The notes under the pieces are model-generated. The model was not told the DNA's origin and did no database searches. It saw nothing but the letters and a program-made list of their open reading frames with translations. 64,000 nucleotides of DNA from Adineta ricciae. Its lineage: Eukaryota; Rotifera; Eurotatoria; Adinetida; Adinetidae. How positions within the stretch are numbered: the stretch's first letter is position 1; each line of letters starts with the position of its first letter. Made by a program: the position numbers and the translations under genes. Below are positions 13,453 through 15,537 of this stretch, piece by piece. The stretch is from contig CAJNOJ010000366.1 of assembly GCA_905250025.1 (NCBI GenBank), positions 27,668 through 91,667 on the forward strand, written 5' to 3'.

Positions 13453-15537
13453 ATGTCTGACGACCTTATCTCAATATCTTCTTTGACGCTCAAAGCTATC
13501 GTTGGTTCAGATAGTTGGGGGAAAGCAAAACTGCAGACAATCTTGTTGTCGTTTTCAATGCGAACCAACATATCTGCTGCAGGCAAGACCGATCATCTAC
13601 CATATTCCATTCATTATGGTACGGCTAATAAAATAGTATCAGAGTTCGTAGAAAACAAAACATTCGAAACGATTGAAGATATTGCGGAAGGCGTGTGCAA
13701 TGTGCTCCTAAGCGAAAAATTGAAGGGCGTATGGATCAAGCTACGAGTAGAAAAGCCACGAGAACTGTTACGGGCCGAAACATCAGGATTAGAAATTATT
13801 CGATCAATACCATGTGACAATGTGAAATCGGTAGCTGATTCAATGTTTGTTCGAAATCTCTCGCTTCTAACCATCATTGGAATACATCCATGGGAACGGA
13901 AAGAAAGACAACCAGTGCTACTAAATATGACCTTTTATAAGTCATCAGACACAAACTTCTGGTGGTCGGAAGGATACAATCTTAGATCTATTGTTCATCA
14001 AACCTGTGAGCACGTTGAAACAAGTTCATACCTCACGATAGAGGCTTTGATAACAAGCATTGCTAAATTGTTATGTGTTAATCTGAATATTTCGAAGGTC
14101 ACAATTTCTGCTAGCAAACCTTATGCACTTTCGTTTGCGATACCTGCTGTGGAAATCACTCGAGACAAGACATATTTCGAAACGAATCAGAATGTCTATC
14201 TAACACTTAGCTCAAACGTTAGATCACGTGCACAGAATCTTTCAGACGCGATAAAACAACTCAATGAGCGAGGTATCATGGTCGTCGACACAAGTTTCTT
14301 GTACGAAACAAAAGCGATGGTTAATACTGTTCATCCATGCTTTTTGTATGCAGCCGTCTGTGTGGAAACAGAATTGTCACCTGATGAGCTTTTTCGTGAA
14401 CTCAAGTTGATTGAAAATGAAATAGAAGAAACAAAAACAGTGCTACAGGGATCACGAAAAATTGTTTTAGACATTCTTTTATACAAAGATACTTTGCTGG
14501 AGCGTGATGGCTTCTCAATACCGCATAAACTAATACTAAAAGAACCAGTTTTTCTTGCACCTCTCGTGGATATATCACCAGAACTTCGACATCCTTTGAC
14601 AAATTCAACAGTGCTATATCATTTATCCCTTTTATCATCATCCAACAACACTTCAATTCTAAAATATTTGCCTCTTCCTCGTAACCGACATATCATTTTT
14701 GAGAGAGGTGGCGCAAGGCAGATCATGGCAGTGCTCAATTTTCCATTTGACTACTTTTCCAAGGACAATGAACATGTAGATATTGATATAGTGAATACTG
14801 TAAAGGAAATGATACATGACGGTGCTACAATTATAGAAATTACCAGTTGTTCCTTCATTGGCACATCGATATCAGAAGAGGAAGAAAGTCGACGAATAAT
14901 TTATCCTATCAAAGTCATACGCGAAGCTAGGATAGATGTTTGCATCAGCGTGAATACGTTTCGTGCTGAGATTGCGCGCCGAGCTGTAGAAGCAGGTGCC
15001 GACATAGTTAATGACGTATCCGGTGGCTCTTTAGATCCTTCTATGTTCCAAACGGTGGCAGAGTTGAATGTTCCAATAGTGATCCGCAGTTCTTCTAGTG
15101 CAGCGCAAACAACGCTCACTCCGACACAGGTGAAAGAAAATACATTTGGTACTTTATGCGAGAGTATGGTGAAATGTGTTAAGCAAGCGATACATGCAGG
15201 TATTAAGCGATGGAATATAATTCTTGATCCTAGTTTTGGTACTAACAAGACGCATGAAGACGATCTTGACCTTATCTGTCGATTGCCAGATCTCGTTCAT
15301 CATCAAGCATTTCGAAATATACCCTTTCTCTTTGAACCATTAGCCTCAAGAATAATCGACTCATCCAATGGTGTGGAAAAAGAAACTACATGCATTTGGA
15401 GCACCGCAAGTGCATTGGCAGTTTGCGTTGTTTTTGGAGCGGATATCATTCGAGTTCATCATTTAAAAGAAATGGCCCAAGTGATCAAGGTCGCAGATGC
15501 AATTCGAATACAACAATATAAGAAAAACCTATTATAA
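13453..15537 (+). CDS. FOL1-like folate-pathway fusion (FolB-FolB-FolK-FolP), divergent
   Basis: A 694-residue intronless protein with the domain order of fungal FOL1. First dihydroneopterin aldolase-like domain about 3-120 (SSLTLKAIVGSDSWG, SIHYG, KP at 101-102). Second about 130-240 (IIGIHPWER, SSYLTIEALITSIA, SASKP). HPPK-like domain about 247-385 and dihydropteroate-synthase-like domain about 415-690. In fungi this fusion makes folate; animals normally lack it.

Several catalytic positions are changed. HPPK has SSN for GSN, GSR for GPR, and IVLD for the Mg-binding DLD pair, so one Asp is lost. DHPS has FPFDYFSKD for TPDSFSDGG, SVNT for SIDT, and SRI for SRK, and it lacks the pterin loop glycines. 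NDVSGG and the Asp of DPS remain. The long open frame shows it is not simply decaying. Fungal origin by transfer is my inference. It may keep only aldolase or pterin-binding roles. Confidence 0.85.
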   Translation: MSDDLISISSLTLKAIVGSDSWGKAKLQTILLSFSMRTNISAAGKTDHLPYSIHYGTANKIVSEFVENKTFETIEDIAEGVCNVLLSEKLKGVWIKLRVEKPRELLRAETSGLEIIRSIPCDNVKSVADSMFVRNLSLLTIIGIHPWERKERQPVLLNMTFYKSSDTNFWWSEGYNLRSIVHQTCEHVETSSYLTIEALITSIAKLLCVNLNISKVTISASKPYALSFAIPAVEITRDKTYFETNQNVYLTLSSNVRSRAQNLSDAIKQLNERGIMVVDTSFLYETKAMVNTVHPCFLYAAVCVETELSPDELFRELKLIENEIEETKTVLQGSRKIVLDILLYKDTLLERDGFSIPHKLILKEPVFLAPLVDISPELRHPLTNSTVLYHLSLLSSSNNTSILKYLPLPRNRHIIFERGGARQIMAVLNFPFDYFSKDNEHVDIDIVNTVKEMIHDGATIIEITSCSFIGTSISEEEESRRIIYPIKVIREARIDVCISVNTFRAEIARRAVEAGADIVNDVSGGSLDPSMFQTVAELNVPIVIRSSSSAAQTTLTPTQVKENTFGTLCESMVKCVKQAIHAGIKRWNIILDPSFGTNKTHEDDLDLICRLPDLVHHQAFRNIPFLFEPLASRIIDSSNGVEKETTCIWSTASALAVCVVFGADIIRVHHLKEMAQVIKVADAIRIQQYKKNLL

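Follow-up and report, generated by a model that had tools for sequence, protein, structure and literature searches.

A FOL1-like gene of the bdelloid rotifer Adineta ricciae with retained FolB site residues and rewritten HPPK and DHPS active sites

We analysed 64,000 nucleotides of contig C366 (CAJNOJ010000366.1, positions 27,668 to 91,667) of the bdelloid rotifer Adineta ricciae, hereafter the window, and searched the 130.5 Mb assembly (1033 contigs) to which it belongs. The window carries a FOL1-like gene in an open reading frame (13432-15537) with its first ATG at 13453, giving 694 amino acids; in every other frame of 13453-15534, five in all, there are between 18 and 49 stops. Pfam scored the two FolB stretches together at 135.1 bits (79 and 65 bits singly), HPPK at 78.8 and Pterin_bind at 139.9, all above the curated cut-offs. 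The protein thus has the four-domain FOL1 architecture, FolB-FolB-HPPK-DHPS, in one frame, and both the Pfam domains and the frame agree with the order, length and openness given in a preliminary description made from the letters alone. Codon use in frame correlated with that of host-contig genes at 0.64 and 0.75 and out of frame at 0.21-0.36; genes outside the codon reference set reached 0.63-0.85. A second copy of the gene was not found in the assembly by a search that scored only the best candidates. The gene is a real, unusual FOL1 variant, and its features are as follows.

13453..15537, plus strand: intronless FOL1-like gene of 694 codons, FolB-FolB-(pseudo)HPPK-(pseudo)DHPS
13421..13441, plus strand: pyrimidine-rich stretch ending in AG, 11 bases upstream of the ATG; possible (trans-)splice acceptor
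13468..13797, plus strand: FolB domain 1 (Pfam, residue table); Tyr55 (13615-13617) corresponds to S. aureus Tyr54, and Glu75 and Lys101 are also kept
13843..14160, plus strand: FolB domain 2 (Pfam, residue table); Glu148 (13894-13896), Glu197 (14041-14043) and Lys222 (14116-14118) correspond to Glu22, Glu74 and Lys100
14197..14580, plus strand: HPPK domain with catalytic residues lost, the first metal Asp being Val338 (14464-14466), and others at Y299, E326 and E364; R335, D340 and H358 kept
14725..15459, plus strand: DHPS domain with loop 1 rewritten (residues 431-439), loop 2 lost, Asn501 (14953-14955) in place of Asp, and the catalytic Lys lost (15346-15354)

Canonical FOL1-type genes were found elsewhere in the genome. 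Contig C220 has one complete gene (775 aa), a second frame that ends inside DHPS at an N, and a DHPS-only stretch that starts at an N. These tandem copies lie in C220:70001-90000 (L031, L032), interleaved with inosine-uridine nucleoside hydrolase frames. C548 has one complete gene (790 aa), and C666 a truncated one (597 aa) without FolB in the available sequence, which was compared for HPPK-DHPS only. The HPPK and DHPS motifs of the canonical copies are intact except for small changes, such as SRKN and SDAG in C548. Identity between the window gene and the canonical copies is about 32% (32% to C220 across the longest match). The best PDB match of C220 was yeast FOL1 (429 bits), and the window gene matched the Arabidopsis enzyme best (186 bits) and yeast FOL1 less well (146 bits).

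Residue conservation was judged against bacterial loci; these had been retrieved by two peptide patterns taken from HPPK of the window gene and of the canonical copies. HPPK (n=80), DHPS (n=79) and FolB (n=71) sequences came from the best 80 of 488 confirmed stretches, and columns were called conserved at 90% for HPPK and DHPS and at 80% for FolB. Since the loci were pattern-derived and mostly titled Bacillota, these columns are a biased sample. Of the two metal-binding Asp residues of an active HPPK the window gene has only the second (V338/D340). The first is conserved in 80 of 80 bacterial sequences and in 3 of 3 rotifer copies, and has been called absolutely conserved (PMC3614987). The positions opposite consensus N, R, W, R and F are changed, and HPPK arginines are replaced at E326 and E364. 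In all, 22 of the 40 conserved HPPK columns are kept, as compared to 33 of 40 in each of the three canonical copies.

The DHPS domain differs from 79 bacterial sequences and the three rotifer copies: TPDSF of loop 1, the Asp of SxDT and the catalytic Lys are gone, and Ser is the sole remnant of the S-T-R-P of loop 2. Kept conserved columns number 30 of 67, against 52, 52 and 51 of 67 in the canonical copies. The residues N429, N520, D592, R667 and H669 are retained, and the His of DHPS has a role at the pterin site. In a Burkholderia DHPS structure the loop 2 Thr, the Asp and the Lys contact the product, and further pterin contacts (Asn, Asp, Arg) match N520, D592 and R667 of the window gene (PMC3098144). 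By Pfam and by the predicted model the domain has the DHPS fold, a pterin-binding TIM barrel, and the 50 matches listed for each fold search are DHPS and HPPK-DHPS chains. Most of what the preliminary description had said of these sites held: IVLD at the HPPK metal site, FPFDYFSKD in loop 1 and SVNT at Asn501. Its change of SRK to SRI stood in part, the lysine being lost either way but the alignment being ambiguous, with S632-R633-I634 in a gapped alignment and L-A-S opposite S-R-K in HMMER and MAFFT. The lost HPPK arginines and the lost DHPS loop 2 are additions to the changes that it named.

In bacterial FolB enzymes the Tyr of the active site is contributed by the neighbouring subunit. The site lies between two subunits (PMC9937910), and S. 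aureus residues 22, 54, 74 and 100 and their roles have been described (PMC2713229). Four near-invariant bacterial FolB positions map to 23, 55, 75 and 101 of the first window domain, a constant offset of one residue from the S. aureus numbering. At these positions domain 1 of the window gene reads G, Y, E, K and domain 2 reads E, L, E, K, so that equivalents of Glu22, Tyr54, Glu74 and Lys100 are all present across the tandem. The first domain of C220 and C548 reads N, Y, H or G, S and their second reads E, I, E, K. As domain 2 supplies Glu, Glu and Lys and domain 1 supplies Tyr, both the window gene and the canonical genes hold a complete composite site. The Glu and Lys of domain 1 are kept in the window gene and lost in C220 and C548. 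Of 28 conserved FolB columns the window gene keeps 15 in domain 1 and 11 in domain 2 (C220 12 and 13; C548 13 and 11). The broader FolB-domain model TIGR00526 was passed at 123.7 against 45.05 bits.

The two halves of the protein differ in what they have lost. In HPPK-DHPS, 41 columns were lost in the window gene only and 8 in C220 only; the corresponding FolB counts were 2 and 4 (Fisher p 0.017). The 41 are among 85 HPPK-DHPS columns that C220 keeps. When neutral decay was simulated down to the observed HPPK-DHPS loss, stops arose in 400 of 400 runs; neutral change of 2% left a stop-free frame with about 15% chance (100 runs). The frame is thus too intact for plain neutral decay, a conclusion that the simulations support and that had been drawn earlier from the 2 kb of undamaged frame.

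The tandem FolB has been described as characteristic of opisthokonts rather than of fungi: Fungi, Fonticula, Sphaeroforma and Capsaspora have it, and Metazoa are held to have lost it (PMC4224340). An HPPK-DHPS tree of 24 rows, including one yeast, one plant and 18 hand-picked bacterial sequences, grouped the window gene with the yeast and rotifer copies (support 99/92), on a branch about three times as long as those of the canonical copies from the same fork (2.71 against 0.77-0.92). In a FolB tree (22 rows) domain 1 grouped with canonical domain 1 (91/81) and domain 2 with domain 2 (99/96), so the tandem looks shared with the canonical copies. Here the window branches were shorter than the canonical ones (1.15 against 2.3-2.4 and 1.74 against 3.0-3.1). 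In the approximately unbiased (AU) test, with yeast as the one fungal sequence, grouping with the rotifer copies and grouping with yeast both gave p 0.27, so the nearer of the two was not separated. The preliminary description was right on the four-domain FOL1 order, but the fungal origin that its label fungal-type suggests is one candidate among others. The phylogenetic check that it proposed against fungal FOL1 gave a group of the window gene, yeast and the rotifer copies without separating the order inside it; as a whole, the earlier interpretation was partly supported.

A recent duplication of the canonical rotifer copies appears unlikely from two features: the window gene keeps the Glu and Lys of FolB domain 1, and it misses a DHPS insertion common to yeast and the canonical copies; we therefore do not regard it as a simple recent duplicate, although the AU test (p 0.27) does not reject this. 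The PDB ranking had pointed to a kinship with the plant enzyme, which the tree did not favour (AU p 0.067, no formal rejection). A first bacterial scan gave no close relatives (30 pattern hits, none confirmed), and a second gave only generic folate genes among the best 80 of 488 confirmed stretches. By phmmer these 80 loci contained folK in 80, folP in 79 and folB in 71; 63 had FolB-FolK and 2 FolK-FolP fusions, no frame held all three, and the top match (L040) had folK and folP in separate frames. Transfer from a fungus or protist and a relict gene are the candidates for the origin; the gene could even be a relict of an ancestral opisthokont gene lost in other animals. Literature searches, judged by title and the start of the abstract, found no paper on bdelloid folate genes, and folate and pterin terms were absent from the main text of two papers on bdelloid foreign genes (PMC3499245, PMC11258130).

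Other pterin genes and repeats surround the gene in the window.

7020..7466, plus strand: PTPS gene, intronless, with Cys motif FGKCNNPNGHGHNY; homologous copy on C1027
15972..16802, no strand assigned: multi-copy repeat flanking the FOL1-like gene downstream
33219..33772, minus strand: second GTP cyclohydrolase I copy
62978..63609, minus strand: GTP cyclohydrolase I exons split by short introns

The PTPS gene lies 6 kb upstream of the FOL1-like gene and differs from its C1027 homologue by 8 synonymous and 7 non-synonymous changes (dN 0.020, dS 0.093, dN/dS about 0.22). The stretch 29839-33760, bounded at its end by an N (33761), shares 94% identity with 59596-63519; the two GTP cyclohydrolase I copies may be alleles, possibly mis-joined. 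The two top-scoring GTP cyclohydrolase I exon matches of the genome are both on C366. There are at least 5 PTPS loci and GTP cyclohydrolase matches on at least 7 contigs in 130 Mb, and among the contigs listed, which give lower bounds, only C366 has more than one of the FOL1, PTPS and GTP cyclohydrolase families. By a rough estimate such close placement would rarely arise by chance, but the argument is post hoc, as the families were examined after the first neighbour was found. A pterin gene neighbourhood in an animal is possible. A six-frame search for families, made one exon at a time, found no PabB (p-aminobenzoate (pABA) synthase): its single Chorismate_bind match reads in NCBIfam as isochorismate lyase and isochorismate synthase. 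A 664-residue frame (L126:247-2238, C263) resembles a salicylate-synthase fusion, with NCBIfam isochorismate synthase/lyase scores under the cut-offs.

Apart from additional repeat sequence, C1027 parallels the window between 3308 and 12951 and then diverges, 500 bp before the FOL1-like gene; beyond this point only short repeat matches were seen. The downstream repeat at 15972..16802 also occurs on other contigs. Ten single-N positions were found in the window (7615, 10071, 19697, 23156, 24937, 26957, 28288, 33761, 39326 and 51813), with no N between 10071 and 19697. Several end duplicates that are 91-95% identical (19997-21719/23146-24936, 26958-28050/28289-29376 and 50784-51812/52048-53066), and the scaffold seems to mix alleles. 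The window also holds a single-frame GMC oxidoreductase (20919-22589) with a partial second copy at 24139, a sulfotransferase (25673-26902), the end of which recurs unchanged in a 222-bp tandem (26736-27178) around an N, and a palindromic stretch with a 165-bp tandem repeat array (9804-10354).

A 23-nt trans-spliced exon is common to bdelloids (PMC1925144, where its sequence is not printed). A 23-base bdelloid spliced-leader query had no exact match in the genome, 41 matches with one mismatch at the first base and 46 with up to three mismatches, with none for the reversed control, in agreement with a bdelloid genome. Copies on C6, C8, C77 and C99 often stand as opposite-strand pairs about 150 bases apart. 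A scan for the telomere repeat TGTGGG was uninformative because the reversed control is the identical repeat.

We interpret the window gene as a FOL1-type protein that is probably reduced to dihydroneopterin aldolase/epimerase activity, carrying a folded but non-catalytic HPPK-DHPS body (rough probability 0.55). This gives a specific form, as a putative aldolase whose FolB half keeps its site, to the earlier idea of a single-activity protein. The two FolB domains would form a composite site from Glu, Glu and Lys of domain 2 and Tyr of domain 1, with 7,8-dihydroneopterin, which arises from the product of GTP cyclohydrolase, as substrate. HPPK and DHPS would fold without binding metal and ATP or pABA, and would stay in frame to form a body for structure or ligand binding, in which the Asn, Asp and Arg of the DHPS pterin cleft remain; the other, intact FOL1 copies of the genome would take care of the folate steps. 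The domains, the intact frame, the residues lost and kept, the opposed branch lengths of the two halves, the paralogues with intact motifs and the neighbouring pterin genes are observed, and from them we infer the FolB activity, the inactivity of HPPK-DHPS and the role of the body.

Several observations weigh against this interpretation. The window FolB scores under the NCBIfam folB equivalog cut-off TIGR00525 (60.4 against 72.15 bits), as do the canonical copies (C220 57.0, C548 46.3), whereas DHPS and folK still pass theirs (162.9 against 162.6 and 78.2 against 54.1). The FolB comparison involves few columns, 21 per domain at 90%, of which domain 2 alone keeps 8 as compared to 10 in C220, and the contrast between the halves changes with the column cut (p 0.067 at 80%, p 0.004 at 95%). 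Five of the 6 AlphaFold2 segments with a predicted local distance difference test score below 50 fall in the FolB half. The tree programs flagged the window row as long in the HPPK-DHPS tree, and for FolB starred 2 of 19 inner branches and warned that long branches meet. Selection on the gene is argued from the open frame, and the role of the C-terminal half is a proposal from sequence.

Among other explanations, a pterin-binding pseudoenzyme without catalysis in any domain, serving as a pterin sensor, carrier or regulator, is unlikely but the most credible; it corresponds to the pterin-binding option of the preliminary description. DHPS keeps N520, D592, R667 and H669 but has lost the pABA end (loop 2 Thr, Lys), the kept Asn, Asp and Arg are pterin contacts (PMC3098144), and FolB misses the equivalog cut-off. 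Against this, the FolB set is complete, including Lys and Glu that are listed as catalytic besides binding. We consider it less probable that the gene has only recently lost its function, its HPPK-DHPS half changed by relaxed or shifted selection and stops yet to come. The single copy found, the repeat-rich region, the end of the C1027 alignment just upstream and the chance of an open frame after 2% neutral change would fit such early decay; however, neutral change as far as the observed loss of nearly half of the columns that C220 keeps left none of the 400 simulated frames open. Slightly less probable again is that the HPPK and DHPS residues were lost in a donor lineage and that the rotifer received an already specialised gene, with the same biochemistry and another history. 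The domain 1 residues and the missing insertion are in line with this, but no donor was seen in either bacterial scan, and the AU test does not reject grouping with the rotifer copies.

A contaminant or assembly artefact seems very improbable. The ten single-N positions, several of them beside 91-95% identical duplicates, speak for it, but the gene lies in the N-free interval, the downstream repeat is shared with other contigs of the genome, C1027 keeps the order of the window up to 12951, and the in-frame codon use resembles that of host-contig genes. Hardly credible at all is a still trifunctional FOL1 enzyme with unusual residues, for which the passed DHPS and folK cut-offs would speak, since the metal Asp called absolutely conserved (PMC3614987), loop 2 and the catalytic Lys (contacts in PMC3098144) are all lost.

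The proposed aldolase with its inactive body can be set beside known systems. It shares with opisthokont FOL1 (yeast; 2bmb for HPPK-DHPS) the domain order and the HPPK-DHPS fold, and its tandem FolB domains are near their rotifer FOL1 counterparts, but its HPPK and DHPS catalytic residues are lost, its linkers are short and the yeast DHPS insertion is missing. The architecture and the split FolB site are those of C220 and C548, whereas identity to C220, C548 and C666 is low, all three keep the motifs of HPPK and DHPS, and the domain 1 Glu and Lys are lost in C220 and C548. The plant HPPK-DHPS (7mpy), which the C-terminal half matches best both in structure and in PDB sequence, lacks FolB and has intact catalytic motifs in the aligned sequence. 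According to a 2014 survey, Metazoa lack the folB-folK-folP fusion, apart from scattered partial exceptions: a folB-folK of Branchiostoma that is a likely prokaryotic transfer and, with unclear standing, putative genes of Nematostella (folB-folK) and Trichoplax (folB) (PMC4224340). Like the rotifer, Branchiostoma is an animal retaining part of the folate pterin branch, but its gene has a separate origin and comes without folP.

A wider and doubtful scenario would be that an opisthokont-type FOL1, not derived from the canonical copies of the bdelloid, was rebuilt as an aldolase/epimerase with a dead HPPK-DHPS body within a GTP cyclohydrolase/PTPS neighbourhood, branching the tetrahydrobiopterin route to a non-folate pterin. 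As it stands, an animal genome carries complete FOL1-type genes along with a derived one in which a catalytic half with a retained site is joined, in an open frame, to a half whose site is lost. This makes it testable how a fused multi-enzyme protein gives up individual activities while staying in one piece, and whether folate intermediates or some unusual pterin are produced in bdelloids.
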